Assembly: GCA_021782205.1 (NCBI GenBank)
Contig: JAJXVH010000004.1
Coordinates: forward strand, 1 to 64,000
Origin: a bacterium
Lineage (GTDB): Bacteria; Elusimicrobiota; Elusimicrobia; UBA1565; UBA9628
Reading direction: 5' to 3'
Length of the DNA: 64,000 nucleotides
The notes beneath the pieces were generated by a model. It was not told where the DNA came from. It ran no database searches and was given only the letters and a program-made list of their open reading frames with translations. Numbering within the stretch: position 1 is the stretch's first letter; each line of letters opens with the position of its first letter. Positions 8,429-50,352 of this stretch are shown here, in pieces. The position numbers and the translations under genes are program-made.

Positions 8429-8457
8429 TGGACAATCCGCGCGCGCCCTGATACACT
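8429..8457 (+). promoter_or_regulatory. Promoter directly abutting an ATG (leaderless type)
   Basis: TGGACA (8429-8434), a 17-base spacer and TACACT (8452-8457). The ATG begins 8 bases after the -10 ends, so the predicted first transcribed base coincides with the start codon. There is no Shine-Dalgarno sequence. Confidence 0.6.
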
Positions 8458-8464
8458 CCGTGGG

Positions 8465-9094
8465 ATGCTGGATGACTCCTCAGACGTCGTTGCACAGGAG
8501 CGCCAAAAGAAGACGCGCCTGCTGATTATTGGGGGTGTCGCGTCTTTGGTGTTGCCGCTCCTCGGAGCCGCTTATCTCTATTGGGCGAATTCCAAGCCTT
8601 CGCCCGGACTCAGCGGCCGCTCGGACGTCTTTGAGCGCCGCGAGGACGGCGGTCCGATCGTCCCGTCTCACACGGCCGCCAATGCCGCCGCCGTTCCCGC
8701 CGCCACCGGCGGCGGCCCGGCCGGAGCCAAACCGCCCTCGTCCCTGGATTTCATCAAGGCCGACCCCGATTTCCAAACCCGTCCCGCGGCTGCGTCCGCC
8801 AGCGTCGCGACAGCCGCGCCGAAAACGGCGGCCCCCGTCGCGCCCGCCGCGTCGAAGAGCGCCGCGGCGCCGCTGAAATCCGCCGCGGCGAAGAAGGCGT
8901 TCGTGATGCCGAAGCTTCAGCCGACCCGTGGTTTCTCGAATTTCGGCTCATCCGGCGGTGGCGCCGCCGCCGGGGGGGGCGCCGCCGGAAACGGCGGCGG
9001 CCAAGACGTGCAGCAGATGATGCAAAATCTGCCGCCCGGCGCGGCGAACAATCCCGACATCCAGAAGTACCTTCAGAACCAGCAGGGACACTGA
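8465..9094 (+). CDS. Hypothetical membrane-anchored, Ala/Pro/Gly-rich protein
   Basis: A 209-residue protein started at the ATG at 8465. The ORF-track start at 8345 lies within the S1-domain gene. After a short cytoplasmic N-terminus (MLDDSSDVVAQERQKKTR) comes one membrane helix (LLIIGGVASLVLPLLGAAYLYW), then a long low-complexity Ala/Pro/Lys and Gly-rich segment and a short end with QQMMQNLPPGAANNPDIQKYLQ. The topology is consistent with a bitopic protein with a disordered periplasmic arm. I recognise no family. It has its own promoter with no leader. It converges on the aldo/keto reductase genes. Confidence 0.65.
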   Translation: MLDDSSDVVAQERQKKTRLLIIGGVASLVLPLLGAAYLYWANSKPSPGLSGRSDVFERREDGGPIVPSHTAANAAAVPAATGGGPAGAKPPSSLDFIKADPDFQTRPAAASASVATAAPKTAAPVAPAASKSAAAPLKSAAAKKAFVMPKLQPTRGFSNFGSSGGGAAAGGGAAGNGGGQDVQQMMQNLPPGAANNPDIQKYLQNQQGH

Positions 9095-9129
9095 CCCGGC
9101 CTTTCAAAGGCCTGCGGCCATTGCGGGTC
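9093..9129. terminator. Probable terminator between convergent genes
   Basis: GACCCG (9093-9098) pairs with CGGGTC (9124-9129), and an inner GGCCTT/AAGGCC stem lies inside. TTCCTCT follows on the plus strand. The element sits exactly between the stops of two converging genes. The stem is interrupted and the T-tract short. Confidence 0.4.
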
Positions 9130-9135
9130 TTCCTC

Positions 9136-12223
<3,088 letters not shown>

Positions 12224-12291
12224 GGTCAGGGTCTCCTGTGTGATGGTCCTATCTTAACCCCGGAAGGCCGGCGGCGGGTAGACCAAACCTG

Positions 12292-12331: not shown

Positions 12332-12360
12332 TTGCAGGCGGGGGCGCGGCCTGTTACGAT
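12332..12360 (+). promoter_or_regulatory. Leaderless-type promoter of the AraC regulator
   Basis: TTGCAG (12332-12337), a 17-base spacer and TACGAT (12355-12360). The ATG at 12367 follows after 6 bases, so transcription should begin at the start codon. No Shine-Dalgarno is present. Confidence 0.6.
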
Positions 12361-12366
12361 AGAGCC

Positions 12367-13305
12367 ATGAGAAGGCACGCGCGCGGAGATGAAGACCGGG
12401 ACTCGCCGCCTTCGGCCGCCCTCGACGCGCTCAAAAAGGGCATTGCCCGATGGGCCAAGAACGAGGGTCCCAACCCGACGGCCATCCCCGGCCTGACGGC
12501 CGTCCGCTATGACGCGCCGACCAAGCCGCGGCAGGCGATGTATGAGCCCTGCGTCTGCGTCAGCGCGCAGGGCGCCAAGCGGGTGCTCTTGGGCGGGGAG
12601 AGCTTCACCTACGCCCCGGGAAATTTCCTGATCAGCTCCGTGCATCTGCCCACGATCGTGCAGATCGCCCGGGCCAGCCGCGAGAAGCCGTTTCTGGGGT
12701 GCGTGCTCCGGCTCGATCCGCGGGAAATCTCGCAGCTGATGGTGGACGGCAGCCTGCCCCCGCCGCGCGCCCAGCGCGCGGACCGCGGCATGGCGTGCGG
12801 GACTTTGACGCCGCCGTTGCTCTCCGCGCTCCAGCGCCTGATCGATCTGCTCGCCGAGCCCAAGGACCTGCCCATACTCGCGCCGGTGCTCCGGCGGGAG
12901 ATCACGTACCGCCTTCTGGTCGGCGATCAAGGCGCGCGCCTGCGCCAGGTGGCGCTGGCGGGCAGCCGCGGCCACCAGATCTCCCAGGCCATCGAATGGC
13001 TGAACGCGCAATACGTCCAGCCGCTGCGCGTGGAGGACTTGGCCGAGCGCGTCCACATGAGCCCGTCGGCGTTCCATCACCACTTTCGCGCGCTGACGGC
13101 GATGAGCCCCCTGCAATACCAGAAATGGCTGCGATTGAGCGAGGCGCGGCGGCTGATGCTGGCCGAGGACCTGAACGCCGGAACCGCGGCGCTGCGGGTG
13201 GGCTACGAGAGCCCGTCGCAATTCAGCCGCGAGTACCGCCGCCAGTTCGAGAAGCCGCCGTTGGAGGACGTCGCGCAGCTGCGCCGGACGGCAGAGGCGG
13301 TCTGA
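12367..13305 (+). CDS. AraC-family regulator, YqhC-like
   Basis: A 312-residue regulator. Residues about 40-200 form an AraC_N-type cupin sensor domain (YEPCVCVSAQGAKRVLLGGESF, then YAPGNFLISSVHLP). Two helix-turn-helix motifs occupy residues about 205-305, with LAERVHMSPSAFHHHFRA and VGYESPSQFSREYRR. In E. coli, YqhC has this architecture and switches on the aldehyde reductase yqhD and the aldo/keto reductase dkgA. The divergent alcohol dehydrogenase and two aldo/keto reductases here form the same functional combination, so regulation of those genes is a strong inference. An inverted repeat lies in the shared intergenic region. Confidence 0.92.
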   Translation: MRRHARGDEDRDSPPSAALDALKKGIARWAKNEGPNPTAIPGLTAVRYDAPTKPRQAMYEPCVCVSAQGAKRVLLGGESFTYAPGNFLISSVHLPTIVQIARASREKPFLGCVLRLDPREISQLMVDGSLPPPRAQRADRGMACGTLTPPLLSALQRLIDLLAEPKDLPILAPVLRREITYRLLVGDQGARLRQVALAGSRGHQISQAIEWLNAQYVQPLRVEDLAERVHMSPSAFHHHFRALTAMSPLQYQKWLRLSEARRLMLAEDLNAGTAALRVGYESPSQFSREYRRQFEKPPLEDVAQLRRTAEAV

Positions 13306-14520: not shown

Positions 14521-16326
14521 TCAGCGCGGCCGCGGCAGCGTGACGGCGGGGATCAGCAGGCCGGCGCGTTCGCGCGCCCACCAGGATCCGTCGGCGTGGT
14601 ATTCATTGGCCGTCGTAAAGCGCGTGCGCCAGACCGACACGCGCGCGTAGACGGGGCGGGCGCCGCCCAGCGGATTGGGGCCGAGCAGGCCTTCGACGGC
14701 GGGGCTTCCTTCCAAGAGCCGGGTCAGCAGTCCGTCCAGCCACGGGCTCGGCGCGCCGAGCGCCGCGAACCACATCTGCCAGTCCAGCCGCGGCATGTAC
14801 GGGGCGACGACGGGCGGAGCGCGGCGCGGGTCGCCGGGCTTCCATGGGAACGGCCACTCGCGCCAGTCATGGCCGTCGATCGAGACCTCCACGGACAGCT
14901 CGTCGCGCGTCTTCGTCATCACCGCGAACAGGCCGTAGGAGTTGATCGAACGCAGGGGCTCCATGACCGCGACCAGAGCGCCCGCGGCGCCGCGTACGTC
15001 CGCGCCGCAAACGCCGGCGAATTCCACGGCGCCGACCGAGCACCAGAGCGCCGCGAACGCGGTCAGCGCCAGGCGACGCCGTCTTGAAGGCGGCGGCGGG
15101 GAAGCGGTCGGGGCCAGGCGCGTCAGAGGAGAAAAGCCGTCGTCGAGAGCGGCGAGGCACAGCACGAGCGTCAGCAGGTTGAAAAAACCGTAGTTGCCGG
15201 TCGCCGCGATCAGGACCATGAGCGCCGCGATGAGCGCCGCGCCCAGCGCGCGAGGACGTCGCGGCAGAAGCAGAAGCCAGGGCGCCCCGAACTCCACGCC
15301 GAACATGCCCGCGCACGCGGCCTTCTGCGCGAGCAAAGGCAGGCGCGCGGCATACCACGCCGCGGGCGTGGGCAGGGGCTGGGTCCACCAATGGTAGGTC
15401 AGCGCGGTCAGGTCCCGCCACGCGGCGTCGCCGCTGTTCCATTTGGCCAGCGCGGACTCCAGCATCAGCTTGAACAGCAGCAGACGCATGAGGAGGAGCG
15501 CGCCGCGCGAGGCGCGCGACCCGCCGCGCGGCTTCAGCGACCACGGTGCCAAGAAGACGGCGATCAGACCCGCCTCTAATAAGAGCGCGTCCCACTGGAA
15601 GCTCATGAAATCCGTGCCCGCGGCGCATAAGGACAGATACAGCGCCCAGCACGCCAGCGCGCTGGGTCCCGCCCACAGGTCGAGGATCATTCCCAGCGAC
15701 GCGGCCGCGCCCGCCGCGCACAGCCCCACCAAAGCGGCGTCCGACGCGTTGAGCCAGAAGAGCGTAGGCAGAACCCAGAAGCGCAGCGCCCCCAGTTGTC
15801 CGCGCGCCGCGCGCAGCAGATCGGCGGCGGGCAGAAGTCCGTCGACGCCGATGAGGCCCCGCACCTGCACGCCCAAAGAGGCGAAGGCCAGCAGATAGCA
15901 CAGCCCCAGCCCCGCGAGCACGGCGCGGCGCGTCCCGTCGACGGGCGGCGGCAGAGGCGAGCCCCAGAGCAGGCGCGTCAGGCGTGAAAAAAACGGCCGC
16001 CGCGCGGCGACGAACGCATAGGCGCGCTCGCTGGCACGGCGGAAAATAGGAACGCGCTCGTAGAGCTCGGCCCACGCGCGGCGCGGGCCGCCCGCCGCGG
16101 CCAGCGCCGCGAACACCGCGTCGGCGCCGCGGCGCACGCGTCCGCCGGGTGCTACGAAATGCACGGCCTCGGTGAACGCCGCGGGCGGTATCTGCGGAAA
16201 CCTCGCGGCGGCGGATTGATACGGCTCGAAATCGACCGCGCCGCCGGTTTCGGCGCGCCAGCGCTCGATCCAGAGGCGGCAGAAACCGCAGTCGCCGTCG
16301 AAGATCAGCAGGGGCCGTTCGGCCAT
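14521..16326 (-). CDS. DCC thiol-redox domain fused to lipase-maturation-factor-like membrane domain
   Basis: A 601-residue two-part protein. Residues 1-120 form a DCC1/DUF393 domain with the thioredoxin-like DGDCGFCRLW motif (CxxC) and YQSAAARFPQIP. From about 135 onward there are multiple membrane helices with features of LMF1-type proteins: the region around SFQWDALLLEAGLIAVFL and LLLFKLMLESALAKWNSGD. The C-terminal region is soluble, with a W-rich motif DWQMWFAALG. LMF-like proteins assist folding of secreted lipases, and DCC domains are thought to handle disulfides. The fusion suggests a membrane oxidative-folding factor acting outside the cytoplasm. The ATG is preceded by TATAAT only 8 bases upstream. 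Confidence 0.88.
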   Translation of the reverse strand: MAERPLLIFDGDCGFCRLWIERWRAETGGAVDFEPYQSAAARFPQIPPAAFTEAVHFVAPGGRVRRGADAVFAALAAAGGPRRAWAELYERVPIFRRASERAYAFVAARRPFFSRLTRLLWGSPLPPPVDGTRRAVLAGLGLCYLLAFASLGVQVRGLIGVDGLLPAADLLRAARGQLGALRFWVLPTLFWLNASDAALVGLCAAGAAASLGMILDLWAGPSALACWALYLSLCAAGTDFMSFQWDALLLEAGLIAVFLAPWSLKPRGGSRASRGALLLMRLLLFKLMLESALAKWNSGDAAWRDLTALTYHWWTQPLPTPAAWYAARLPLLAQKAACAGMFGVEFGAPWLLLLPRRPRALGAALIAALMVLIAATGNYGFFNLLTLVLCLAALDDGFSPLTRLAPTASPPPPSRRRRLALTAFAALWCSVGAVEFAGVCGADVRGAAGALVAVMEPLRSINSYGLFAVMTKTRDELSVEVSIDGHDWREWPFPWKPGDPRRAPPVVAPYMPRLDWQMWFAALGAPSPWLDGLLTRLLEGSPAVEGLLGPNPLGGARPVYARVSVWRTRFTTANEYHADGSWWARERAGLLIPAVTLPRPR

Positions 16327-16334
16327 GCGTTCAT

Positions 16335-16342
16335 ATTATAAT
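16335..16342. promoter_or_regulatory. Overlapping divergent -10 elements
   Basis: The sequence ATTATAAT gives TATAAT on both strands: minus strand 16335-16340 and plus strand 16337-16342. One faces the DCC/LMF gene and the other the small membrane protein. Only one polymerase could occupy the site at a time. Clear -35 boxes are not seen. Confidence 0.45.
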
Positions 16343-17122: not shown

Positions 17123-18463
17123 CTAAAGCAGAAGCGCGCGCCAGGCCGCTTCAAGCGCGCGGCGCCGTCCGCGGCCCCAGGAGTCCTCGCCGCGCGCGTC
17201 GGCGGCGAGTTCCTTCCAGCCGGGAGACGCGGGCGCGCCCGGATAATCCGGGAGCGTAACGTCCGTCACGGGACGCGGCGCGCCGACGCGCGCGCGGGCC
17301 CTCTCGGCGACGGCGCGGTAGGCGTCGCGAAAAGGCGTGCCCGCGCGGACCAGCGCGACGGCCTGGTGGGTGGCCAGCAGGTCCTCGGTGACGGCGGCGG
17401 CACAAGCGGCTTCATCCACGCGCAGGGACTGGGGCAGGCGCGCGGCGATGTCCAGCATCGCGGCCATGGCGTCCAGCGCGGAGACCAGCACGCCTTTCGT
17501 GAGCTGATAGTCGCGGTGGTAGCCCGAGGGCAGGGCGCCGACGGCGAGGACCTGCGAAAGCCAGCCGGGAAACAGCGCGGCGCGGGCGCGCGTCAGTTCG
17601 ACCACGTCCGGGTTCTTCTTCTGCGGCATGATGCTGGAGCCGGTGGTGAAGGAGTCGGACAGCTTCAGGAGGCCGAACTCGGCCGTGGTATAGAGCGACA
17701 AGTCCCAGGCCAGCACGCCCAGGTCGCGCGCCAGCAGGCACAGCGCGGAAAGACACGCGGCTTCCAAGCGCGGCCGCGAGGACTGCACGCGCAAGGTGTT
17801 GCGCTGGACGCGGGAGAACCCCAGCAGGCGCGCCACGTGCGCGCGCGGCAGAGGCAGCATGACGCCGTAGCCGGCGGCGGAACCCAGCGGGCAGGAGTCG
17901 GCCTCGTCGTAGGCGAAACGCAGGGCGCGCCGGCCGTCGAACAGAGCCTCGGCGTGAGAGGCGGCCCAGTGGCCGAGGGTGGTGGGCATCGCGCGCTGGA
18001 GGTGCGAGTAGCCGGGGATGACGACGTTTTGGCGGCGCGCGCCGAACGCGGCCCACGCGGCGGCGGCTTCCCCCGCGCGCGCGTGCAGGGCCAGCAGACG
18101 ATCCTTTATATGCAGCCTCAAATTGACTTGGACCTGATCGTTGCGGCTGCGGCCGGCGTGGATCTTCGCGCCGATCTCGCCCAGACGCCGGGTCAGGTGC
18201 TGTTCGACCGCGGTGTGGATGTCTTCCTGAGCGCGGGTGACGGCAAACGCGCCGGGCTTGTCGTGCAGGCGCGTCAGCTCCGCGCGCAGGGCGGCGTACT
18301 CCTTCTTGGTCAGCACGCCGATGGAGGTCAGTCCCGCGGCGTGCGCCAGGGAGCCGTAGACTTCGTAGCGCAGAAGACGTGAGTCCAATTCCGGGTCCGC
18401 GCCCACGGTGTAGGCCTCGACGGCGGCGTCCAGGTCGGCGCGCGTCTGCCAAAGTTTTTTCAT
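17123..18463 (-). CDS. argH: Argininosuccinate lyase
   Basis: A 446-residue ArgH, which splits argininosuccinate into arginine and fumarate, the last step of arginine synthesis. Visible are the family signature GSSIMPQKKNPDVVE (residues about 275-290), the SRNDQVQ and EDIHTAVE segments, and the IPGYSHLQRAMPTTL region. The catalytic Ser lies in the GSS loop. The C-terminus is slightly shorter than in E. coli. The start overlaps the stop of the M20 deacylase by 4 bases, so it is the last gene of the nine-gene arginine operon. No clear terminator is visible before the convergent gene. Confidence 0.96.
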   Translation of the reverse strand: MKKLWQTRADLDAAVEAYTVGADPELDSRLLRYEVYGSLAHAAGLTSIGVLTKKEYAALRAELTRLHDKPGAFAVTRAQEDIHTAVEQHLTRRLGEIGAKIHAGRSRNDQVQVNLRLHIKDRLLALHARAGEAAAAWAAFGARRQNVVIPGYSHLQRAMPTTLGHWAASHAEALFDGRRALRFAYDEADSCPLGSAAGYGVMLPLPRAHVARLLGFSRVQRNTLRVQSSRPRLEAACLSALCLLARDLGVLAWDLSLYTTAEFGLLKLSDSFTTGSSIMPQKKNPDVVELTRARAALFPGWLSQVLAVGALPSGYHRDYQLTKGVLVSALDAMAAMLDIAARLPQSLRVDEAACAAAVTEDLLATHQAVALVRAGTPFRDAYRAVAERARARVGAPRPVTDVTLPDYPGAPASPGWKELAADARGEDSWGRGRRRALEAAWRALLL

Positions 18464-19518
18464 CGTGCCGCCTTGGCGAAGTAGTCGCGGATCAGCCGCT
18501 CGTAGAAGGCCACGCCTGCCTCCAGCTCCGCGACCTCAATGAATTCGTCGGGCGTGTGCGAGCGTTTGGACTCGCCGGGTCCGACTTTCACGGTGGGGAT
18601 GCCCTTGAGAAAGACCCAGTCCGACAACGTGGGCGAACCGTAGGGCCGCGCCGCCGGGTTGGCCGACAGCGCGGCCTGCACGACGGCATGCGCGGGGTCC
18701 GTCTCCACCGAGCCCAGCCGCGAGGAGCGCACGCGCACCTGGCCTTCCACGGCGCGCGTCACCGCCGCGACGATCTCCTCGGGCGCGTAGTCGGGCGTGG
18801 TGCGGATGTCGACGACCAGCGTGCAACGGTCGGGGATCACGTTGTGGCGCGCGCCGCCGTTGATCTGGGTCACGTTCAGCGTGGGCGAGCCCAGCGCGGG
18901 GTGCGTCTTGTCAAAGCGCAGCTGCGACAAGACCAGCACGTCGCGCGCCGCGGCCTCGATGGCATTGAGCCCGCCGCCGTGGGCGGCGTGCGCGGAGCGT
19001 CCCGCGGCGGTGATCTCCAAAACGATCAGACCCTTCTGCGCGACCGCGGGCCGCAGACCCGTCGGCTCGCCGACCACGGCGGCGTCCGGGCGCGGCAGAA
19101 GCGGCAGGAGCTTTTCCAGGCCCTGGCCCAGGACCTCTTCCTCGCAGGAGGCGGCCAGCAGCACGCGGCCCTTCGGCGCGTCTTTCTCGAACGCGCGCGC
19201 GGCCCCCAGGATCATGGCGGTCAGGGGACCCTTCGCGTCGTTGGCGCCGCGGCCGTAGAGGCGGCCGTTCTCGATGGTCGCCGACAGCGGCGCCTTCGTC
19301 CAGTCCTCGCCGACGGGCACGGTGTCGGTATGGGAGTTGAGCAGCAGCAGCGGGCCCTCGCCGCCGTCCAGCAGGGCCGTCAGGTTGCGGCCGTGGCGCG
19401 ACGGCGCCAGGCCCAGTTGACGCAGCGCGTCCTCCAAGCGCGCGACCACCGCGTCCTCCTGTCCGCTGGGCGAGGGGATGCGGACCAGGTCCGAGAGCAG
19501 TTCGACGGCGGAGATCAT
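18460..19518 (-). CDS. M20 metallo-hydrolase, probable N-acylcitrulline deacylase
   Basis: A 352-residue M20 peptidase-type amidohydrolase. Dinuclear-zinc motifs are in order: His and Asp in NSHTDTVP, Asp in GRGANDAKG, the catalytic Glu and ligand in SCEEEVLG, and the C-terminal His in KRSHTPDEFI. The operon supplies an acylornithine carbamoyltransferase, so the likely substrate is N-acetyl- or N-succinylcitrulline and the product citrulline for ArgG. Acetylornithine deacetylase or LysK-type activity are alternatives. The C-terminal GSPTLSDW and GPGESKRSHT stretches recall the arginine-cluster M20 enzymes of Bacteroidota, from memory. It overlaps argB and argH by 4 bases on each side. Confidence 0.88.
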   Translation of the reverse strand: MISAVELLSDLVRIPSPSGQEDAVVARLEDALRQLGLAPSRHGRNLTALLDGGEGPLLLLNSHTDTVPVGEDWTKAPLSATIENGRLYGRGANDAKGPLTAMILGAARAFEKDAPKGRVLLAASCEEEVLGQGLEKLLPLLPRPDAAVVGEPTGLRPAVAQKGLIVLEITAAGRSAHAAHGGGLNAIEAAARDVLVLSQLRFDKTHPALGSPTLNVTQINGGARHNVIPDRCTLVVDIRTTPDYAPEEIVAAVTRAVEGQVRVRSSRLGSVETDPAHAVVQAALSANPAARPYGSPTLSDWVFLKGIPTVKVGPGESKRSHTPDEFIEVAELEAGVAFYERLIRDYFAKAAR

Positions 19519-20474
19519 GCGGCCGAGGAATTCAGCGTCGTCTCCGGCGTCGCGGCCAGCTCCGCGGCCTGGTAGGCCTGGCGCTCACGCTTCTCGACGA
19601 TCATCGTGCCGCTGCCCGCGTTCGTGAAGACCTCGCGCAGAAGCGCGCCGGCCTTCAGGCCGTTGATGATGTGCGTGCGCCGCACGCCGCCGCGCAGCGC
19701 GCGGATGCAGGCGTCGGCCTTGGGCAGCATGCCGCCCGTCAGCCGTCCCGCGGCCTTGAACGCCTCCACCTCCTCGACGTCGGTGTAGGACACGAGGCTG
19801 GTCGGATCGCCCACGTCCTGCAGGAGGCCCTCGGTGTCGGTGACGACGATGAGCTTCTCGGCCTTGAGGGCGCGCGCGACCGCCTCCGCGATGGAGTCGG
19901 CGTTGATGTTGAGGATCAGGCCCTCGGGGTCGCAACCCAGGCAGGAGATCACCGGCGTCATGCCCGCGTCGAGCAGGTTCAGCAGCATCTTCGGGTCCAC
20001 GGACTCGATGTCGCCGACGAAGCCGAAGTCGACCTCGACGGGCGCCTCGCCGGGGTTCTTCTCCATCGTCTTCTTGGGCCGCCGATGCGCGACGATCAGC
20101 CCGCCGTCCACGCCCGACACGCCGACGGCCGGCGTGTGGTGCGCGCGGAAGGAGGACAAAATGTCGATGTTCAAGGTGCCCGCGTAGGTCATCTTGGCGA
20201 CTTCCAGCATCTGCGCGTCGGTGATGCGGCGTCCGGCGACGAACTCCGGCTCCAGACCCAGCTTGCGCGCCAGTTCCGTGGCCTGGTGGCCGCCGCCGTG
20301 CACCAGCACCACGCGGATGCCCACCTGCTGGAGCAGGGACACGTCCTCGACCAGGGCGTCGAGCGTGTCGCGCCGTCCCACCACGCGCCCGCCGACCTTC
20401 ACGACGAAGGTCTTCCCTTTGTACATGCGGATGTAGGGAACGGCCTGCTTGAGCATGATGGGCGTGTCGGTCAT
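19515..20474 (-). CDS. argB: Acetylglutamate kinase
   Basis: A 319-residue amino-acid kinase that phosphorylates N-acetylglutamate. Motifs are VVKVGGRVV at the N-terminus, VLVHGGGHQATELARKLG, and the C-terminal GGMLPKADACIRALRGGV that contacts ATP. The start at 20474 is chosen because CAGGAGA lies before it and the ORF-track extension to 20693 runs inside the carbamoyltransferase gene. An extra segment near residues 131-150 (RRPKKTMEKNPGEAPVEVDFG) is typical of a minor group. Whether it is arginine-sensitive cannot be read from the sequence. It overlaps its neighbours by 4 bases on both sides. Confidence 0.95.
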   Translation of the reverse strand: MTDTPIMLKQAVPYIRMYKGKTFVVKVGGRVVGRRDTLDALVEDVSLLQQVGIRVVLVHGGGHQATELARKLGLEPEFVAGRRITDAQMLEVAKMTYAGTLNIDILSSFRAHHTPAVGVSGVDGGLIVAHRRPKKTMEKNPGEAPVEVDFGFVGDIESVDPKMLLNLLDAGMTPVISCLGCDPEGLILNINADSIAEAVARALKAEKLIVVTDTEGLLQDVGDPTSLVSYTDVEEVEAFKAAGRLTGGMLPKADACIRALRGGVRRTHIINGLKAGALLREVFTNAGSGTMIVEKRERQAYQAAELAATPETTLNSSAA

Positions 20475-21526
20475 CGGACGATTCTCCTGTGGGCGGCGGT
20501 TTTGGACGGCGCGGCGAGCAGATGCAGAAGGACGGCCTTGGCGGCGTGCAGGCGGTTCTCCGCCTGGTCGAGCACCGCCGACCACGGCCCGTCGAGCACC
20601 GCGTCGGCGACGACCAGGTTGCGGCGCACGGGCAGGCAGTGCATGAAAAGGGCGGAGTCCGTGCGCTTCATCTTGGCGGGCGTGACCATCCATTGCGCGC
20701 GGAAGCCCGCGTCGGAAGACGGCGGCGCGCCGTAATTCCGGAGGGAGCCCCAGGACTTGGCGTAGACCACGTGCTGGCCGTCGTAGGCGGCGGGCACGTC
20801 GGAGGTCACGGTCAGCGTCCCGCCTTGGCGCGCGCAGTTGTCGGCCGCGCGCTTCATGACTTCGGGGTCAAGGTCGTAGCCTTCCGGACGCGCGATGGTC
20901 ACGTTCATGCCGGCCATCGCGGCCATCTCCACGGCGGAGTTGGGCACGGCCATGGGCAGGGCTTTCACGTGCGGCGCCCAGGTCAGCAGGAAGTTCCTGC
21001 CTCGGGGCTTCATGCGTTCCTGGATGGTGACCAGGTCGGCGAGCGCCTGGCAGGGGTGCCCGGACGAGGACTCCAGGTTGATCACCGGCACGGTCGAGTA
21101 TTTGCGAAACGCCGTCAGCGCCGGCTCGGCCTTGTCCTCGTCCCAGCTCTTGCCGGCGGGAAAGGAGCGCAGGCCCAGCGCCGCGCAGAAGCGGCCCAGC
21201 ACGGGCACGGCTTCCTTGAGGTGCTCCGCCGCGGCGCCGTCCATGACCGTGCCTTCCACGGACTCCATGCCCCACGTCCCGCCGCCTCCTGTCCCGAGGC
21301 TCAGCGTGATCGGGTGGCCTCCCAGCGACGCGGCCGCGACCTCGCAGGACACCTGCGTGCGCAGGGACGGGTTCATGAAGCAGAACGCCAGGCTCTTGCC
21401 CGCCAGCGGCGCGCCCTTCGGAGATTTCTTTTTTAACGCGCGAGCGGCGTCCGCCAGCGCGAGGAATTCCGCGGGAGAAAAGTCCTTGAGGTGAGTGAAG
21501 TGGCGAAGGGTTTTCATCGGACTCAT
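20471..21526 (-). CDS. N-acylornithine carbamoyltransferase
   Basis: A 351-residue transcarbamylase that would carbamoylate acetyl- or succinylornithine. Carbamoyl-phosphate motifs are FMNPSLRTQVS (the STRT-type loop) and SGHPCQALADL. FMHCLPVRRN lies near the C-terminus. Features separating it from ordinary OTCases are GTVMDGAAAEHLKEAVPVLG and TWAPHVKALPMAVPNS, which match the acetyl/succinyl-ornithine enzymes of Xanthomonas and Bacteroides. At the position where, by my alignment from memory, AOTCase has Glu and SOTCase has Pro, this protein has Ala, so the acyl group is unresolved. The start at 21526 directly follows the argD stop (TGAATG). A second ATG 9 bases later is possible. Confidence 0.88.
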   Translation of the reverse strand: MSPMKTLRHFTHLKDFSPAEFLALADAARALKKKSPKGAPLAGKSLAFCFMNPSLRTQVSCEVAAASLGGHPITLSLGTGGGGTWGMESVEGTVMDGAAAEHLKEAVPVLGRFCAALGLRSFPAGKSWDEDKAEPALTAFRKYSTVPVINLESSSGHPCQALADLVTIQERMKPRGRNFLLTWAPHVKALPMAVPNSAVEMAAMAGMNVTIARPEGYDLDPEVMKRAADNCARQGGTLTVTSDVPAAYDGQHVVYAKSWGSLRNYGAPPSSDAGFRAQWMVTPAKMKRTDSALFMHCLPVRRNLVVADAVLDGPWSAVLDQAENRLHAAKAVLLHLLAAPSKTAAHRRIVR

Positions 21527-26442: not shown

Positions 26443-26458
26443 GATGAATAAATATACA
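26425..26458. promoter_or_regulatory. Perfect palindromic ARG-box pair over the argR start
   Basis: TGTATATTTATTCATC (26425-26440) and GATGAATAAATATACA (26443-26458) are perfect 16-base inverted copies separated by two bases. Each arm resembles an ARG-box half (TGAAT plus an AT-rich core). The site covers the -10 and the first argR codons, so bound ArgR would block polymerase and the start of transcription. Confidence 0.8.
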
Positions 26459-26479
26459 AAACGGCGTCGGCCGCGTCAA
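26451..26479 (-). promoter_or_regulatory. Promoter of the arginine operon
   Basis: On the minus strand TTGACG (26474-26479), a 17-base spacer and TATATT (26451-26456). The -35 overlaps the last codons of the SWIM gene. The GTG at 26442 follows the -10 after 8 bases, so the mRNA would be leaderless or carry only a few leader bases. Confidence 0.7.
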
Positions 26480-31050: not shown

Positions 31051-31055
31051 ATGAT

Positions 31056-33967: not shown

Positions 33968-33996
33968 TTGACAACCGCCGCCGCAGGGCTCATACT
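33968..33996 (+). promoter_or_regulatory. Leaderless-type promoter with consensus -35
   Basis: TTGACA (33968-33973), a 17-base spacer and CATACT (33991-33996). The GTG at 34002 begins 6 bases after the -10 ends. No ribosome-binding site or other start codon exists between this promoter and the upstream in-frame stop at 33969, so the promoter also decides the start. Confidence 0.7.
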
Positions 33997-34001
33997 GCAT
34001 T

Positions 34002-34505: not shown

Positions 34506-34559
34506 CGCGCCGCCGCCTCTCGTGGGCGCGGAGGCTCTATCGTTGCTTAAATTAACTTT

Positions 34560-37267: not shown

Positions 37268-38002
37268 TCAGGCGGAGGGCCGCGCCCAGGCCTCGGCGGC
37301 GGCCAGCTTCTCGGGCGTGCCGATGTCGTGCCAGGCGTGGGGGGCGGAGAGCCGGCCGCGGATGTCGGCTCCCGCGGCGGCCAGGCGCAGGTAGGTCTTC
37401 GTGATGGAGAACGCCCCGGATTCGGAGATGAGGTCCAGGAACGGGGGGGAGATCACGTGGACGCCCTCGAACGGCAGGCGCCGCGCGCCGGTGACCGCGC
37501 CTTTGGCCCAGGTCGTCCGCCCGGAAGAGCGATCCTCGTGGCCGACCAGGCGGTCCTTGGCGTCGAACAGGTAGGCGCGGGAGCTGTCGCGCTCGCCCAC
37601 GGCGAGGGTGGCCAGGGCGCCGCTCTCCAGGTGGGCGGCGTAGAGCGCGCGCAGGTCCAGGTCGGTCAGGATGTCGGCGTTGTGGACGAAGAAGGGCTGC
37701 CGCCCGCGCAGGAGCAGAGACGCCTTCTTGAGGCCGCCGCCGGTGTCCAGCAGGGCGTCGTCCTCGCGCGAGACCGCGATGGGCACGCCGCGCCGCCGCG
37801 ACAGGTCGGCGCAGAACTCGGCCACGCGCGCGGCGAAATGGTGCGCGTTGACCACGAAGGAGTCCGCGCCGGCGTCCTGCAGGCGGACCAGCACGCGTTC
37901 GAGCATGGGCACGCCCGCCACGGCGATCAGGGCCTTCGGCGTGGCGGCGGTCAGCGGCCCCAGGCGCGAGCCCACGCCGGCGGCCAGGATCAAGGCTTTC
38001 AT
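37268..38002 (-). CDS. Nucleotidyltransferase, MurU-like
   Basis: A 244-residue sugar-phosphate nucleotidyltransferase. The N-terminal signature is LILAAGVGSRLGPLTAATPKAL (GxGxRxxPxTxxxPK), then a DTGGGLKKA region and the metal Asp in FVHNADILTDLD. The ORF-track start far upstream is inside the kinase gene. The chosen ATG at 38002 overlaps the kinase stop as ATGA. The paired upstream gene looks like an AmgK-type kinase, and AmgK plus MurU convert N-acetylmuramate to UDP-MurNAc in peptidoglycan recycling. That pairing is the main reason for this assignment. A mannose- or glucose-1-phosphate substrate remains possible. Confidence 0.85.
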   Translation of the reverse strand: MKALILAAGVGSRLGPLTAATPKALIAVAGVPMLERVLVRLQDAGADSFVVNAHHFAARVAEFCADLSRRRGVPIAVSREDDALLDTGGGLKKASLLLRGRQPFFVHNADILTDLDLRALYAAHLESGALATLAVGERDSSRAYLFDAKDRLVGHEDRSSGRTTWAKGAVTGARRLPFEGVHVISPPFLDLISESGAFSITKTYLRLAAAGADIRGRLSAPHAWHDIGTPEKLAAAEAWARPSA

Positions 38003-39423
38003 TTTTCGGGCCAGCTCTTTTTTTCGCGGTGCGCGACGCTCACGGACACGCCCTGGTCGCGCAGGTGCTTGGCCAGGCGCTCCGCGCAGTACACGGAGCG
38101 GTGCTGGCCGCCGGTGCAGCCGAAGGCGACGAGCAGATGCGTGAAGTTGCGCCGCCCATAGTCCGCGACGGCCTGGTCGATCAGCGCGAAGGCCGAGCGC
38201 GTCCAGCGCTCCACGCTCTCTTCCCGGGAAAGGAAGGCGATGACGTCGGCGTCCAGGCCCGAGGAGCGCTTGAATTGGACGTGGCGTCCCGGGTTGGGCA
38301 GGCAGCGGCAGTCGAAGACGTAGCCGCCGCCGTGGCCCTTGTCGTCGCGCGGCATGCCGTGCTTGTAGGAAAAGCTCTGGATCTGCACCGTCAGCGTCAG
38401 CTTCGCCGCGCCGAACTGGCGCAGTTCCGAGGAGCCGATCAGGCGCTTGAAGACGGCCATGAGCTCCGGCGCTTCGACGGGTAGGTTGGACGTCAGCAGG
38501 AGGTGCTCGATGTTGCGGATGGCGTAGGGGATGCTTTGCAGAAACAGCGGTTTTTTTTCGTGGAAGCCGCGCAGGCCGTAGGCGCCCATGGCCTGCATGA
38601 TGCGGATCAGCGCGAAGCCAGGGAAATACTTCTTGAACTCGGCCTTGTCGACCGCGGCGTGCTTCGAGGCCTCCGCGATGTAGAAATCCAGAAGCTCGTC
38701 GCGCAGTTCGAAGGGGACGTCCGCCTTGGCGTCGTAGAGCAGGGAGGCGATGTCGTATTGCAGCGCGCCGCGCCGTCCGCCCTGATAGTCGATGAAGTAC
38801 GGCCGCCCGTCCTTGAGCATCACGTTGCGCGATTGAAAGTCGCGGCACAGGAAGTAATCGCGGTCGGCGGCCAGCAGGTAATCGGCGAACACGGAGAAGT
38901 CCTGCTCCAGGCGCTCCTCGTGGAAGACGACGCGGCCGAGCGTCAGGAAGTAATACTTGAAGTAGTTGAGGTCCCACAGCATCGACTGGCGGTCGAAACT
39001 GCGGCGCGGGTAGCACCAGCGCTCGTCGATGCCGCGGCCCGCGACGATCTGGATTTTCGGCAACCAAGTGACGACGTCCCGGTAGGCCGCGACCACGTCC
39101 GGCGGAAAGCCCGCGGCCGTGCGCCGGCGTCCCAGGAATTGGAACAACGTCGTGTCGCCCAGGTCCTCCTCCAGGTAGGCGGTCCCGGACGCGTCCTCGG
39201 CGTAGATCTCGGGCACGGGGATGCCTTCGCGGCGGAAGTGCTTGGAGAACTCGATGAACGCGCGATTTTCCTTTATATCGTCGTTGAGCACGCCGATCGC
39301 GACCGCGTCGCCGCCGCTGAGGCGGTAGATGCGGCGGTTGGAGCCTTCCGCGCGCACGGGTGCGGAGCTATCGGGGGTGCGGCCGAAGCGCGCGCGAAAC
39401 AGGGCCTGCAGCGGATCGGGCAT
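37999..39423 (-). CDS. AmgK-like sugar kinase fused to RapZ C-terminal domain
   Basis: A 474-residue two-domain protein. Residues 1-330 form an aminoglycoside-phosphotransferase-like kinase with the Brenner motif FLCRDFQSRNVML (HxDxxxxN-type, with R in place of H) and FIDYQGGRRGALQYD (the DxG-type metal loop). Residues about 345-474 match the RapZ C-terminal domain: KHGMPRD, then FDCRCLPNPG and VAFGCTGGQHRSVYCAERLA. The latter contains the glycine-rich phosphate-binding loop. RapZ-C binds glucosamine-6-phosphate in E. coli. The kinase may phosphorylate N-acetylmuramate or GlcNAc, and the RapZ part may sense an amino-sugar phosphate. The promoter is leaderless. Confidence 0.88.
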   Translation of the reverse strand: MPDPLQALFRARFGRTPDSSAPVRAEGSNRRIYRLSGGDAVAIGVLNDDIKENRAFIEFSKHFRREGIPVPEIYAEDASGTAYLEEDLGDTTLFQFLGRRRTAAGFPPDVVAAYRDVVTWLPKIQIVAGRGIDERWCYPRRSFDRQSMLWDLNYFKYYFLTLGRVVFHEERLEQDFSVFADYLLAADRDYFLCRDFQSRNVMLKDGRPYFIDYQGGRRGALQYDIASLLYDAKADVPFELRDELLDFYIAEASKHAAVDKAEFKKYFPGFALIRIMQAMGAYGLRGFHEKKPLFLQSIPYAIRNIEHLLLTSNLPVEAPELMAVFKRLIGSSELRQFGAAKLTLTVQIQSFSYKHGMPRDDKGHGGGYVFDCRCLPNPGRHVQFKRSSGLDADVIAFLSREESVERWTRSAFALIDQAVADYGRRNFTHLLVAFGCTGGQHRSVYCAERLAKHLRDQGVSVSVAHREKKSWPEK

Positions 39424-39429
39424 GAGACG

Positions 39430-39458
39430 ATATTAGCTAATCGGAGCGTTCTCGTCAG
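39430..39458 (-). promoter_or_regulatory. Leaderless-type promoter of the kinase gene
   Basis: On the minus strand CTGACG (39453-39458), a 17-base spacer and TAATAT (39430-39435). The ATG at 39423 follows after 6 bases, and there is no Shine-Dalgarno. Confidence 0.6.
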
Positions 39459-43767: not shown

Positions 43768-43796
43768 TTGAACGTGCGGCGGGCTCGGGCTATCCT
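43768..43796 (+). promoter_or_regulatory. Leaderless-type promoter
   Basis: TTGAAC (43768-43773), a 17-base spacer and TATCCT (43791-43796). The ATG at 43803 begins after 6 bases. No Shine-Dalgarno is present. Confidence 0.6.
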
Positions 43797-43802
43797 GAGG
43801 CC

Positions 43803-44216
43803 ATGAACGCTTTGGCCCGCCTGCTGGGACTGCCCGCCGCCCGGTCCGCGCCGCCGGTCGATGCGAAGCCGGCGGCCGTCGCCGTCGCGCCGCAGGCTCC
43901 GCGCGAGATGCGCGAAGAAGAAGGGCGCGTTCAGTTTCGCGGCCTGCTGTGGCGTCCGGTGGTGACGGTCGACGACACGGCGCTGCTGGTGGTGGCCGCG
44001 CGCGCGGGTCTGCCGCACTGCGCGCGTTGCGAGAAGCCCCTGTCGCTGGCGGCGGGCGGCCAGGAACGCTGGGTCTGTCCCGCCTGCGGGGAGTCGCACT
44101 CCGGCGTGGAGACGGACTTCTTCGCCGCCGAGTCGGTGGCCGCCGCCCGCGTGCGCGAGTTCCTGTCCGGGCATCCCGGCTTTCGGCCCGCGCCGGGCCT
44201 GCCCGCGGCGGCCTAA
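43803..44216 (+). CDS. Zinc-ribbon protein of unknown function
   Basis: A 137-residue cytosolic protein. A Pro/Ala-rich N-terminus is followed by a strand-rich segment VQFRGLLWRPVVTVDDTALLVVA and a four-Cys zinc ribbon: CARCEKPLSL (CxxC) and VCPACGES (CxxC) about 22 residues apart. The C-terminus ends GHPGFRPAPGL. No family is recognised. The ribbon suggests nucleic-acid or protein binding. It lies 63 bases after the M13 gene with its own leaderless promoter. Confidence 0.7.
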   Translation: MNALARLLGLPAARSAPPVDAKPAAVAVAPQAPREMREEEGRVQFRGLLWRPVVTVDDTALLVVAARAGLPHCARCEKPLSLAAGGQERWVCPACGESHSGVETDFFAAESVAAARVREFLSGHPGFRPAPGLPAAA

Positions 44217-44292: not shown

Positions 44293-44298
44293 TATACT
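44293..44298 (+). promoter_or_regulatory. -10 element next to a GTG start
   Basis: TATACT (44293-44298) ends 6 bases before the GTG at 44305. No convincing -35 is found at 16-18 bases. Placement is the same as in other leaderless-type starts here. Confidence 0.45.
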
Positions 44299-44304
44299 GA
44301 CGCC

Positions 44305-45108
44305 GTGGCCCATCGCGAGCACGACTGCGACGACGGCGAGCCCCGGCGCTGGCGCGCGATCTGGATTTCGGACATTCATCTGGGCACGCGCGACTGCAAG
44401 ACCGCGTTCCTGTTGGAATTCCTGAAAGAGAACGAGTCCGACGTCCTGTACCTCGTCGGCGACGTGATCGACGGCTGGCGCCTGAAGACCTCCTGGCACT
44501 ACTGGGACCAAAGCCACAACGACGTGGTGCAGAAAATCCTGCGCAAGGCGCGCAAAGGCGCGCGCGTGATCCTGGTGCCGGGCAACCATGACGAGGCGTT
44601 CCGGGATTTCGGCGGCATGCATTTCGGCGGCGTCGAGGTCGCGCTGGAAGCCGTGCACGCGACCGCCGACGGGCGGCGCTTTCTTGTGGTGCACGGCGAC
44701 CAATTCGACGGGATCGTGCGCCACGCCAAGGCCCTCGCCGTGCTGGGGACCTGGGCTTACGACCTGGCCCTGCGCGTCAATCATTGGTTCAACGCCGCGC
44801 GGAGGCTGTTCGGCCTGCCGTATTGGTCGTTGTCGGCCTACCTGAAGCACAAGGTCAAGAACGCGGTGGCGTTCATCGCGAAGTTCGAGGAGGAGATGAT
44901 CGCGGAGACGCGTCGTCGCGGCCTGGACGGCGTGATCTGCGGCCACATCCATCACGCGGAAATCCGCGACGCGGGCGGGGTGCTCTACTGCAACGACGGC
45001 GACTGGGTGGAAAGCTGCACGGCTTTGGTGGAGGATTTCGACGGGTCGCTGAAGCTTCTGCGCTGGGCCGAGGAGCGCCGACGGCCGCGCGCGGCGGCCG
45101 CCGCGTGA
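44305..45108 (+). CDS. LpxH-like UDP-2,3-diacylglucosamine diphosphatase
   Basis: A 267-residue calcineurin-like phosphoesterase. The metal motifs are in the right order: IWISDIHLGTRD, LVGDVIDGW, VPGNHDEAF, VVHGDQFDG and CGHIHHAEI. Pattern and length fit the LpxH/YbbF group that removes UMP from UDP-2,3-diacylglucosamine in lipid A synthesis at the membrane face. This would show that the cell makes lipid A. Other phospho-diester substrates are possible. The GTG start is read from a -10 6 bases upstream. The next gene starts with a GTG overlapping its TGA. Confidence 0.9.
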   Translation: MAHREHDCDDGEPRRWRAIWISDIHLGTRDCKTAFLLEFLKENESDVLYLVGDVIDGWRLKTSWHYWDQSHNDVVQKILRKARKGARVILVPGNHDEAFRDFGGMHFGGVEVALEAVHATADGRRFLVVHGDQFDGIVRHAKALAVLGTWAYDLALRVNHWFNAARRLFGLPYWSLSAYLKHKVKNAVAFIAKFEEEMIAETRRRGLDGVICGHIHHAEIRDAGGVLYCNDGDWVESCTALVEDFDGSLKLLRWAEERRRPRAAAAA

Positions 45109-46346
45109 GCGTCGCGGCGCGGCCGCGCCCGAGAATACTGATCCTGCACGCCTCCGTCGGCGCGGGCCACACGCGCGCGGCGCGGGCTGTGGCGGACGCG
45201 CTGGCGTCGCGCGCGCCCCAGGCGCAAGTCCAAGTCGTCGACGCGCTGGAATTGGCGCGCCCGCTATTCCGGCGCGTGTACGGCGAGGGCTACTTGGGCC
45301 TGGTCGAGCACGCCCCGGCGCTGTTCGGCTTGCTTTACGAACGGACCGACCGGCCTTGCGGCCGCGCCGCGTTGGGCGACCGCCTGCGCCGGGCCGTGCA
45401 GAATTGGGGCGCGCCGCGCCTCGTCGAATTTTTAGAGAAGGGTCGTTGGGACGCGGTGGTGCACACGCATTTTCTGGCGCCGGAGCTGTGCGCCGCGTCG
45501 GCGCGCGCGGGGCGCTTGAGCGCTCCCCAACTCACCGTCGTCACCGACTACGACGCGCACCGGATCTGGGCGGGCAATTCGCGCGCGCGCTACTGCGTGG
45601 CCGGCGCCGCGGCGGCCGCGTCCCTGCGCGCGCATGGCGTCGCCGCGGATGCCATCGCGGTGACGGGCATACCGGTGGACCCCGCCTTCGCGCGGCCGTC
45701 GGATCAGGAGACGGCGCGGCGGGAGTTCGGCCTGTCCGGCGCGCGTCCCGTCGTGGTGTTGTCGGCGGGCGGCCACGGCGTGGGTCCGTTGGAGGAGTTC
45801 TACCGCGCCCTGCTGGCGTGCTCGACGCCGTCGCGGATCGTGGCCGTCTGCGGCCGCAACGAGGACGCGCGCCGCCGCCTGACGGCGATCGCCCCGCCGC
45901 CGCGTCATCGCGCGCTCGTGCTGGGCTACACCGACCAGATGCGGACCTTGATGGCCGCCGCCGACCTGCTGGTCACCAAGCCCGGCGGCCTCACCGTCTC
46001 GGAGGCGCTGGCCGTCGGCCTGCCCATGGCGCTGATCCGCCCCATCCCGGGCCAGGAAGAACGCAACGCCGATTTTCTTCTGAAGGGCGGCGCGGCCGTC
46101 CGCGCGGGTTCTCCGGCCGCGCTGACCGGCGTGGTGGACGGAACGCTCTCCTGCGCGGACCGTCTCGCCGAACTGGGCCGGCGCGCGCTCAGCCTCGGTC
46201 GCCCGCGCGCCTCCTTCGACGTCGCGGAGCGGGTTTTGAGATTGGCCGTAAACGACGGCGAACGGCCGCGAGCGTTGACAAGTCGGGACAGGGGGGCTAT
46301 AGTTAGCGCTGGAGGAACACCCCATGGCCCTGATCGACCGCGTTAA
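45105..46346 (+). CDS. GT28-like glycosyltransferase (MGDG synthase type)
   Basis: A 413-residue glycosyltransferase, from the GTG at 45105 overlapping the phosphoesterase stop. The ORF-track start at 44784 is upstream inside that gene. ILILHASVGAGHTRAARAVADAL is the GHxRAA-type opening of MGDG synthase/UgtP-like enzymes. The C-terminal nucleotide-sugar domain has TKPGGLTVSEALAVGLPMAL. These enzymes put a sugar on diacylglycerol or a related lipid at the cytosolic membrane face. The gene ends 23 bases beyond the SPFH start codon, so the last codons overlap the promoter and start of the next gene. The exact donor is unknown. Confidence 0.88.
   Translation: MSVAARPRPRILILHASVGAGHTRAARAVADALASRAPQAQVQVVDALELARPLFRRVYGEGYLGLVEHAPALFGLLYERTDRPCGRAALGDRLRRAVQNWGAPRLVEFLEKGRWDAVVHTHFLAPELCAASARAGRLSAPQLTVVTDYDAHRIWAGNSRARYCVAGAAAAASLRAHGVAADAIAVTGIPVDPAFARPSDQETARREFGLSGARPVVVLSAGGHGVGPLEEFYRALLACSTPSRIVAVCGRNEDARRRLTAIAPPPRHRALVLGYTDQMRTLMAAADLLVTKPGGLTVSEALAVGLPMALIRPIPGQEERNADFLLKGGAAVRAGSPAALTGVVDGTLSCADRLAELGRRALSLGRPRASFDVAERVLRLAVNDGERPRALTSRDRGAIVSAGGTPHGPDRPR
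46275..46303 (+). promoter_or_regulatory. Strong promoter of the SPFH gene
   Basis: TTGACA (46275-46280), a 17-base spacer and TATAGT (46298-46303) lie within the end of the glycosyltransferase gene. GGAGG (46311-46315) precedes the ATG at 46324, so this message has a normal, short leader. Confidence 0.75.
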
Positions 46347-48250: not shown

Positions 48251-48256
48251 CGCGGT

Positions 48257-48994
48257 TTATTTCCGGGGCTTGTCGAGCAGTCCGCCCAGGGCCGACATGA
48301 TCGTGCTGCGGGCCTGATCCAGGACCTTGCCGCCGGCATTTTGCGCCGCGCCGCGCGCGGACGCCTCCACGGCGCGCAGGGCTTGGGCCGCGACCTCGGC
48401 CGGCGAGCGGCGCGGGCCGCCCAGGTTCGTCAGATGGACGTCCGGCAGCGCGACGCTGAGCTTCCGCCCTCCGAGCGCGGCCGCGGCCAGACCCACCTTG
48501 CCGCCGGTCACGGAGAAATCTTCGATGAGAAGCGACTTGCTCGGCTTGGCCGGCGCGGCCGAGGGCTTGGCTTCGGCGGACGCGCCGCCGGCCTCGGCGG
48601 CGGCATGCTCGGCATTGTCGCGCAGGCGCGTCAGGTTCGAGCCGTCGGGGCCGATCTCCCAGGTCAGCTCCGGCGCCGCGACCGCGACGCGCTCGACGAC
48701 GATGGTGTCGGTGAGCAGCGAGGAGAGCCTGACGGCGATGTCGACGGACCCCACGCGCACGGCGCTGGCGCTCTTGAAGCCCTCGGGGTTGCCGATCACC
48801 AGTCCTTCCAAGGTCCCGCGCCCCGACAGCGGCGAGAGCGTGACGCGCGCCAGCGTGACCGGCGCGCCCAGCACGCGCGGCCCCGCGGCCTCCACGGCGG
48901 CCGTGATGATGCGCCCCAGATTGACGGACACGACGACGGCCGCGACCGCCAGCAAGACCACTCCCGCCGCCGCCGCCCAGATCAGCTTCTTCAT
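48257..48994 (-). CDS. Short AsmA-like membrane-anchored protein
   Basis: A 245-residue protein. One N-terminal membrane helix (LIWAAAAGVVLLAVAAVVVSV) is followed by the AsmA/DUF748-type repeat GRIITAAVEAAGPRVLGAPVTLARVTLSPLSGRGTLEGLVIGNPEG. The C-terminal region has an IxDFSVTGGKVGLAA strand set and a helix with ARSTIMSALGGLLDKP. Full AsmA proteins are far longer and bridge the periplasm for phospholipid transport. This one contains only the N-terminal unit. GAGGAGG precedes the ATG. It converges on the methyltransferase. Confidence 0.82.
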   Translation of the reverse strand: MKKLIWAAAAGVVLLAVAAVVVSVNLGRIITAAVEAAGPRVLGAPVTLARVTLSPLSGRGTLEGLVIGNPEGFKSASAVRVGSVDIAVRLSSLLTDTIVVERVAVAAPELTWEIGPDGSNLTRLRDNAEHAAAEAGGASAEAKPSAAPAKPSKSLLIEDFSVTGGKVGLAAAALGGRKLSVALPDVHLTNLGGPRRSPAEVAAQALRAVEASARGAAQNAGGKVLDQARSTIMSALGGLLDKPRK

Positions 48995-49075
48995 CGCGAG
49001 GTCCTCCTCTGAAAACGCCCTAGCGCTACTGTATCAAAACGCGATCAAATGCGCCGCGCGGACGCGCCCGCGCTC

Positions 49076-49104
49076 TTGCCTTCGCGCCGCCGGGGAGCTA
49101 CAGT
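49076..49104 (+). promoter_or_regulatory. Leaderless-type promoter of glgC
   Basis: TTGCCT (49076-49081), a 17-base spacer and TACAGT (49099-49104). The GTG at 49111 begins after 6 bases. No Shine-Dalgarno is present. Confidence 0.6.
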
Positions 49105-49110
49105 AGACGT

Positions 49111-50352
49111 GTGAAGATCGAGGGCGCCCGCGCCGAACGCCGCAAGCGCGTATTGGCGTTCGTGCTGGCGGGCGGCAAGGGCCAGCGGCTTGAGCCTCTG
49201 ACCACGTACACGCCCAAGCCCGCGGTCACCTTCGGCGGCATCTACCGCATCATCGACTTCACGCTCAGCAACTGCCTGAACTCCGACATCCACAACATCT
49301 ACGCGCTGGTGCAGTATAAATCCGCGGACCTGATCCGGCACCTGCGCGACGGCTGGCAGAATTACTTCTCCACCGGCCGCGGCGAATATCTGGAGGTGAT
49401 CCCGCCCCAGTACGCGGCCACCGACCAATCCTACGCCGGCACCGCGGACGCGATCTATCAGAATCTCTATCTGCTGGAGCAGGAGAATCCGGACCACGTC
49501 GCGATCCTGGCCGGCGACCACATCTACAAGATGGACTACCGCAAGATGATCGCCTGCCACCGCGACCACGACGCGGACCTGACGGTCGGTTCGGTCGAGG
49601 TGCCGCTCAAGGACGGAACCGAGTTCGGCATCATCCAGTCCGACGCGACGGGCCGGGTGCTGGGTTTCCAGGAGAAACCCAAGGACCCGCCTCCGATCCC
49701 GGGCAACCCGGCGTGTTGCTACGCCTCCATGGGCATCTATGTCTTCAAGCCCGCGGCGCTGTCCGAGGCGCTGAGGACCGACGCGGCCGACGCGTCCAGC
49801 AGCCACGACTTCGGCAAGGACATCATCGCGCGCATGGTCGCCACGCGGCGCGTGTTCACCTACAGCTTCGTCGACGAGAACGGAAAAACCGCCAAGTATT
49901 GGCGCGACGCCGGCACGCTCGACGCCTACTACTCCGCGAACATGGACCTGATCGGCGTCGACCCGATCTTGAACCTCTACGACGAGGACTGGCCCATCCG
50001 CGCGGCCGCGGTGCAGGCCCCGCCGCCGAAGACCGTGTTCCGCGCCGAGGGCCGGACCGGCAGCGCGGTCGACTCCATGCTGTCTCCGGGCTGCATCGTC
50101 AGCGGCGGCACGGTCATCCATTCCATCCTGTCGCCGCACGCCTGCGTGCACAGCTGGGCGCACGTGGAGGACTCGATCCTCTTCGAGCGCGTGGACGTGG
50201 GCCGCCGGGCGCGCGTGCGCCGCGCCATCATCGCCGAGGGCGTGAAGATCCCGCCCGACGCCGTGATCGGCTACGACGAGGTCCAGGACCGCGCGCGCTT
50301 CCTGATCACCGAAGGCGGCGTCGTCGTCGTGTCCAAGGACGCGCGCATCTAG
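49111..50352 (+). CDS. glgC: Glucose-1-phosphate adenylyltransferase
   Basis: A 413-residue GlgC, which makes ADP-glucose for glycogen. The N-terminal nucleotide loop is VLAGGKGQRLEPLTTYTPKPAV, followed by GGIYRIIDFTLSN. The AGDHIYKMDY region carries the catalytic Asp, and the glucose-1-phosphate site is EKP in LGFQEKPKDP. The C-terminal left-handed beta-helix repeats (for example VHSWAHVEDSILFERVDVGRR) complete the fold. It is transcribed alone from a leaderless promoter, with no other glycogen genes nearby. Confidence 0.95.
   Translation: MKIEGARAERRKRVLAFVLAGGKGQRLEPLTTYTPKPAVTFGGIYRIIDFTLSNCLNSDIHNIYALVQYKSADLIRHLRDGWQNYFSTGRGEYLEVIPPQYAATDQSYAGTADAIYQNLYLLEQENPDHVAILAGDHIYKMDYRKMIACHRDHDADLTVGSVEVPLKDGTEFGIIQSDATGRVLGFQEKPKDPPPIPGNPACCYASMGIYVFKPAALSEALRTDAADASSSHDFGKDIIARMVATRRVFTYSFVDENGKTAKYWRDAGTLDAYYSANMDLIGVDPILNLYDEDWPIRAAAVQAPPPKTVFRAEGRTGSAVDSMLSPGCIVSGGTVIHSILSPHACVHSWAHVEDSILFERVDVGRRARVRRAIIAEGVKIPPDAVIGYDEVQDRARFLITEGGVVVVSKDARI

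Follow-up and report, generated by a model that had tools for sequence, protein, structure and literature searches.

According to Zheng et al. (2011; PMC3160421), a TA-like signal lying some 12 bp upstream marks leaderless bacterial genes and degenerates to TAnnnT in high-GC genomes. They make up an average of 19% of genes in Actinobacteria, 39% in Deinococcus-Thermus and 13% in Acidobacteria, with other groups contributing as well. For Deinococcus-Thermus, Zhong et al. (2025; PMC12340547) described an ORF-adjacent TANNNT, for which a -35 is optional, as the promoter of leaderless mRNAs at about a third of genes. More generally, surveys put the share of bacterial species with at least some leaderless transcription at about a fifth (PMC9581028). 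Elusimicrobiota are neither named in the text of Zheng et al. (2011) nor found in the main text of PMC12340547, and a partial literature search yielded no report of leaderless genes for this phylum.

The window analysed here is a stretch of 64,000 nucleotides from an Elusimicrobiota MAG (3.09 Mb, 95.6% complete, 67-68% GC) whose host is uncultured. Our data make it very probable that initiation without a leader is common among the genes of this lineage, with the mRNA 5' ends deduced from the DNA.

Start-adjacent promoters in the window

The original prediction listed eight genes with a -10 only 5-8 bases before the start codon and a -35 about 17 bases further upstream. As far as the location of the hexamers is concerned, all eight pairs were found at the named places, with a gap of 17 bp in every case and the distance to the named start between 5 and 8 bases. 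Four are leaderless-type promoters on the plus strand: 8429-8467 (TGGACA 8429-8434, TACACT 8452-8457, 7 nt to ATG 8465), 12332-12369 in front of an AraC-family regulator (TTGCAG 12332-12337, TACGAT 12355-12360, 6 nt to ATG 12367), the AT-rich 31022-31058 of a MarR-family gene (TTTATA 31022-31027, TATATT 31045-31050, 5 nt to ATG 31056) and 33968-34004 (TTGACA 33968-33973, CATACT 33991-33996, 5 nt to GTG 34002). Three predicted leaderless promoters precede an APH-RapZ_C fusion gene (39421-39458, minus; CTGACG 39453-39458, TAATAT 39430-39435, 6 nt to ATG 39423), the gene starting at 43803 (43768-43805, plus; TTGAAC 43768-43773, TATCCT 43791-43796, 6 nt to the ATG) and a GlmU-like nucleotidyltransferase (49076-49113, plus; TTGCCT 49076-49081, TACAGT 49099-49104, 6 nt to GTG 49111). 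The eighth belongs to argR and is discussed below. Two qualifications apply to the motifs themselves: CATACT at 34002 departs from TANNNT at its first position, and TTTATA, TTGAAC and CTGACG are correctly positioned but weak matches to a -35, which is weak genome-wide too.

Besides, seven genes had been assigned a -10 only, and all of these sites are present with spacers of 5-8. They comprise a cation-transporting P-type ATPase gene (5480-5493, minus; TAGGAT 5488-5493, 5 nt to ATG 5482, or alternatively TATCAT at spacer 10), a lipase maturation factor-like gene (16324-16340, minus; TAATAT at spacer 6 or TATAAT at spacer 8, ATG 16326), the gene at 34560 (34548-34562, plus; TAAATT 34548-34553, 6 nt to the ATG), a metallophosphoesterase-like gene (44293-44307, plus; TATACT 44293-44298, 6 nt to GTG 44305) and the gene at 54386 (54375-54388, plus; TAGAAT 54375-54380, 5 nt to the ATG). 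The remaining two form a divergent pair within 53713-53753, with starts 35 bp apart: TATCCT (53722-53727) at spacer 6 from GTG 53715 on the minus strand and TAGAAT (53738-53743) at spacer 7 from ATG 53751 on the plus strand. Taken singly, the sites at 5482 (minus), 34002 and 31056 are weak or ambiguous.

The listed genes carry no useful Shine-Dalgarno (SD) sequence. Only two crude core matches were found: at 49111, a GGAG located further upstream than the -10, and at 5482 (minus), an AGGA contained in the -10 itself. As had been claimed, the neighbouring genes at 46324 and 35324 do possess one, with GGAGG at 8 and 4 bases, respectively; the former serves as a contrast gene with leader (46275-46326, plus), in which TTGACA and TATAGT are separated by 17 bp and GGAGG stands 8 nt before ATG 46324. 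This leader layout is the same in the loci L001/L200 and L002.

Several side observations concern the genes of this region. A short ribosomal protein S1-like protein of 389 aa, under every NCBIfam S1 cut-off, is encoded at 7225-8394 (plus). The gene at 37999-39423 (minus) fuses an APH-like phosphotransferase domain to a RapZ C-terminal domain and is found in almost every genome of the family, most of which also have a second RapZ_C relative elsewhere. Divergent gene pairs in which the start codons are separated by only 25-35 bp, and either gene has a -10 of its own but no predicted leader, were seen at 53713-53753, in L114 (5466-5501) and on contig C120 of the same genome (59563-59588), where the hexamers ATTATA and TATCAT overlap as a bidirectional element.

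Genome-wide distribution and nature of the element

Positional statistics were drawn from 717 kb of the genome, i.e. the window plus 653 kb more. Genes and starts were called with our own coding-potential model, which does not use upstream signals. A gene was regarded as transcript-leading if divergent or at least 25 bases away from the upstream gene, and equal-width control windows placed further upstream provided the background for TANNNT. Within the window, 12 of 33 leading genes have TANNNT at a spacing of 5-8, with 1.3 expected; over the 717 kb, it is found in 81 of 300 (9.4 expected, control maximum 15, binomial p ~1e-50), which corresponds, net of background, to ~24% of the leading genes and to ~13% of the full gene sample. 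The signal peaks exactly at spacer 6 (52 genes vs 2.5 per position), followed by a shoulder at spacers 7-9. The genome-wide count proposed along with the original prediction therefore turned out strongly positive, and for leading genes only: among operon-internal genes, 5 of 269 carry the hexamer at this spacing (Fisher p 2e-19 against the 81 of 300). The 81 genes start with ATG (65) or GTG (16), never with TTG, and an SD core precedes just 7 of them compared to 72 of the 219 other leading genes (p 1e-5). Overall, an SD core is present in 26% of the transcript-leading genes, about as often as the leaderless-type signal, and in 45% of the internal ones. Hence, a signal at about 12 bp, a lack of SD sequences and the restriction to genes heading a transcript, by which Zheng et al. 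(2011) recognise leaderless genes in silico, are all found here.

A whole-genome pattern scan, which is independent of gene calls, gave a comparable picture. TTGAC-N18-TANNNT-N6-RTG occurs 26 times in the genome; if the spacer is set to 16 bases, the count falls to 5, and the reversed pattern is absent. Over 16 genomes of the same family, the pattern was counted 297 times at spacer 6 and 51 times at spacer 16. Conversely, if leading-gene promoters are selected for TTGA and a proper -10, 14 of 27 sit 5-9 bases from the start codon.

Regarding the motif, only TANNNT was imposed by the search, but the hexamers prefer TA[AT]A[AC]T. Two positions ahead of the hexamer, a G is present in 60%, with a T directly in front of it in 49%; this pair corresponds to an extended -10 TG. 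Upstream, TTGACA-like hexamers (at least 4 of 6 matches) peak at a gap of 17-18 bp. A TATAAT-like -10 with a TTGACA-like -35 within 16-18 bp is the composition of a sigma-70-type promoter, and we infer the sigma factor and the true 5' ends from this motif and its position. GC-rich genomes often have AT-rich stretches around their start codons, and TANNNT could on these grounds be a translation-related AT-rich patch that keeps the initiation region unstructured and has no promoter function. The sharp preference for one spacing and the companion extended -10 and -35 elements speak against such a patch, and its near-absence in operon-internal genes largely refutes it, so that we give this explanation hardly any credence.

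Instead, it is highly probable that these are ordinary sigma-70-type promoters, positioned in such a way that the mRNA would start at or near the start codon and be translated without a leader. Transcription from sigma-70 promoters starts 7-8 bases after the -10, and with spacer 6 the start point would therefore coincide with the first nucleotide of the start codon. Most of the promoters would carry an extended -10 (TGnTAwamT), accompanied by a weak -35 at a distance of 17-18 bp. The resulting mRNA would begin with AUG or GUG, or a few nucleotides before it, and ribosomes carrying initiator tRNA would bind the 5'-terminal start codon directly, while the remaining genes and downstream cistrons would initiate by SD sequences. 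Individual genes may give rise to longer transcripts from upstream promoters as well.

Conservation in relatives and the arginine operon

In orthologs with 53-88% identity, the -10 and its spacing are retained within otherwise diverged surroundings. Among pairs at 50-90% identity, the signal is kept in 16 of 19 leaderless-type orthologs, with the 19 pairs representing 6 genes only and 13 of them a single gene. Orthologs of other genes show the signal in 1 of 12 cases, and the 8 chance TANNNTs taken as positional controls are all lost. The APH-RapZ_C gene (39423, minus) illustrates this pattern: same-genus orthologs (78-96% identity) retain the -10 and its spacing, those at 78-82% identity having TAAGAT or TAATAT with the start ~6 bases on; several have a TGGACG/TTGCCG-like -35 at 17-18 bp, the remaining upstream DNA has diverged and some starts have moved a few codons along with the -10. 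For the GlmU-like gene at 49111, whose closest named genomes are Elusimicrobia bacterium MAG 13 (92%), SKS1.bin53 (88%) and Elusimicrobia UBA9639 (76% identity), the spacer is 6 in L001, L002 (88%) and L003 (76%), with the ATG of L002 and L003 placed differently. The relatives compared also retain the -10 of 43803, 44305, 53715 (minus), 53751 and 54386. In MAG 13, both the promoter of 43803 (86% identity) and the -10 of 44305 are conserved; L002 keeps both -10s of the divergent pair 53715/53751 at 53-61% identity, and its ortholog of 54386 is likewise preceded by TAGAAT. At 16326 (minus), the ortholog in L215 has TATAAT at spacer 6. For the AraC-family regulator (12367-13305, plus), there is no close ortholog among 37 other genomes of the family; the gene is probably acquired, yet it possesses a leaderless-type promoter.

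The argR/arg-operon promoter (26423-26479, minus; TTGACG 26474-26479, TATATT 26451-26456) required a correction. Its hexamers are as originally described, but GTG 26442, which had been taken as the start codon at a spacer of 8, is not conserved and is replaced by GCT, GTA, TCA and other triplets in relatives. In contrast, the ATG at 26437-26439, the -35 and two ARG-box-like 18-mers are conserved in nine genomes (L191-L199), with TTGACG being nearly invariant. Since the conserved ATG 26439 lies at spacer 11 from the -10, the argR mRNA probably has a leader of about 4 nt, which is short rather than absent. The two ARG-box-like 18-mers (minus) are located 2 bp apart, at 26443-26460 over the -10 and at 26423-26440 over the start codon and codons 2-5. 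The second candidate operator thereby doubles as the coding sequence for MNKYT. Downstream of argR follow argG, the gene 23733-24785, argC, an argD-type transaminase, N-acetylornithine carbamoyltransferase, argB, an argE-type deacylase and argH; as these arg genes lie behind it, the promoter probably serves and autoregulates the entire arginine operon. In this operon (17123-26439, minus), N-acetylornithine carbamoyltransferase replaces ornithine carbamoyltransferase, alongside the argE-type deacylase, while gene 23733-24785 has no match among NCBIfam models.

The shift from 26442 to 26439 is a reminder that start calling is imperfect, and the -10s might be real with translation beginning further downstream, behind normal short leaders. 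The peak is bound to the called starts, and in most orthologs the alignment sets in at residues 1-5 counted from there, which makes a general misplacement of starts very unlikely. A milder variant is that part of the set makes leaders of 2-5 nt. The shoulder at spacers 7-9, the spacer of 11 at argR and the APH-RapZ_C orthologs of genus g3, in which TACAAT is found 9-10 bases before the start, are in line with such short leaders, but the main peak lies exactly at 6; we regard this variant as possible, albeit with a rather low probability.

Spread across lineages and relation to known systems

The signal is also seen in relatives. In same-genus samples, the share of leading genes that carry it is 25% for G188 and 37% for a pool of eight genomes, over a background of ~4%, leaving 21-33% net; other genera of the family reach 16-22%. 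L001-L003 together provide 16 leading genes, too few for a separate profile. A class-mate from family f3 (G036) shows a smaller but clear peak exactly at 6 (19 vs 3.5). As a positive control, a Deinococcus deserti plasmid gave 13% vs 3%, below published chromosome-wide values. No excess was detected in loci of Planctomycetota, Deltaproteobacteria, Omnitrophota, Spirochaetes and Gamma/Betaproteobacteria or in a 50-kb stretch of E. coli, and the loci of Acidobacteria were too few for a verdict. For the scan of 199 genomes of the phylum, the reversed-pattern control of a first version was replaced by a spacer-16 control, since any promoter excess inflates the ratio against the former. The spacer-6/spacer-16 ratios were 5.8 (own family), 3.6 (f4), 1.6 (f3 as well as those f10 genomes that were tallied) and less than 1 (f17). 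G032 had no peak in the gene-based test although its pattern ratio was 19:1, and the single-genome profiles of the distant relatives G011, G053 and G066 come from samples that are too small or too AT-rich; therefore, claims beyond the own family are tentative. Within these limits, the signal appears to vary by family, being strong in the own and some others and weak or absent elsewhere. Due to this variation, close relatives could be used to follow how leaderless initiation was gained and lost.

On balance, we favour the view that initiation without a leader, or nearly so, is used throughout this Elusimicrobiota family; for leading genes it would be as frequent as SD-led initiation, and it would have arisen or been kept independently of Actinobacteriota and Deinococcota. 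It would also shape regulation, as suggested by the argR operators across the -10 and first codons and by leader-free divergent genes sharing 25-35 bp. A phylum with very few cultured members would thus join the groups in which leaderless translation is a major route. This is a sequence-based prediction that can be tested with metatranscriptomes, and it has a practical side, as gene finders relying on SD sequences only would misplace starts in these MAGs.

In comparison with known systems, the first T of TANNNT at the spacer-6 peak lies 12 bp before the start, just as in the signal of Zheng et al. (2011). The ORF-adjacent -10 of Deinococcus-Thermus (PMC12340547) has been verified experimentally, whereas ours is deduced; it serves ~30% of ORFs there, compared to ~13% of all genes and 24% net of leading genes here (21-33% net within the genus). 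The GeneMarkS-2-predicted leaderless species cited in PMC9581028 likewise have genomes with mixed SD and leaderless use. Elusimicrobia and Endomicrobia have been placed in the class with a normal anti-SD (PMC10783764), which agrees with such a mixed use in our genome. Taken together, the evidence, which reaches as far as the promoter, points to a new phylum, apparently unreported in this respect, for an architecture already known as a minority form from Actinobacteria and Deinococcus-Thermus.
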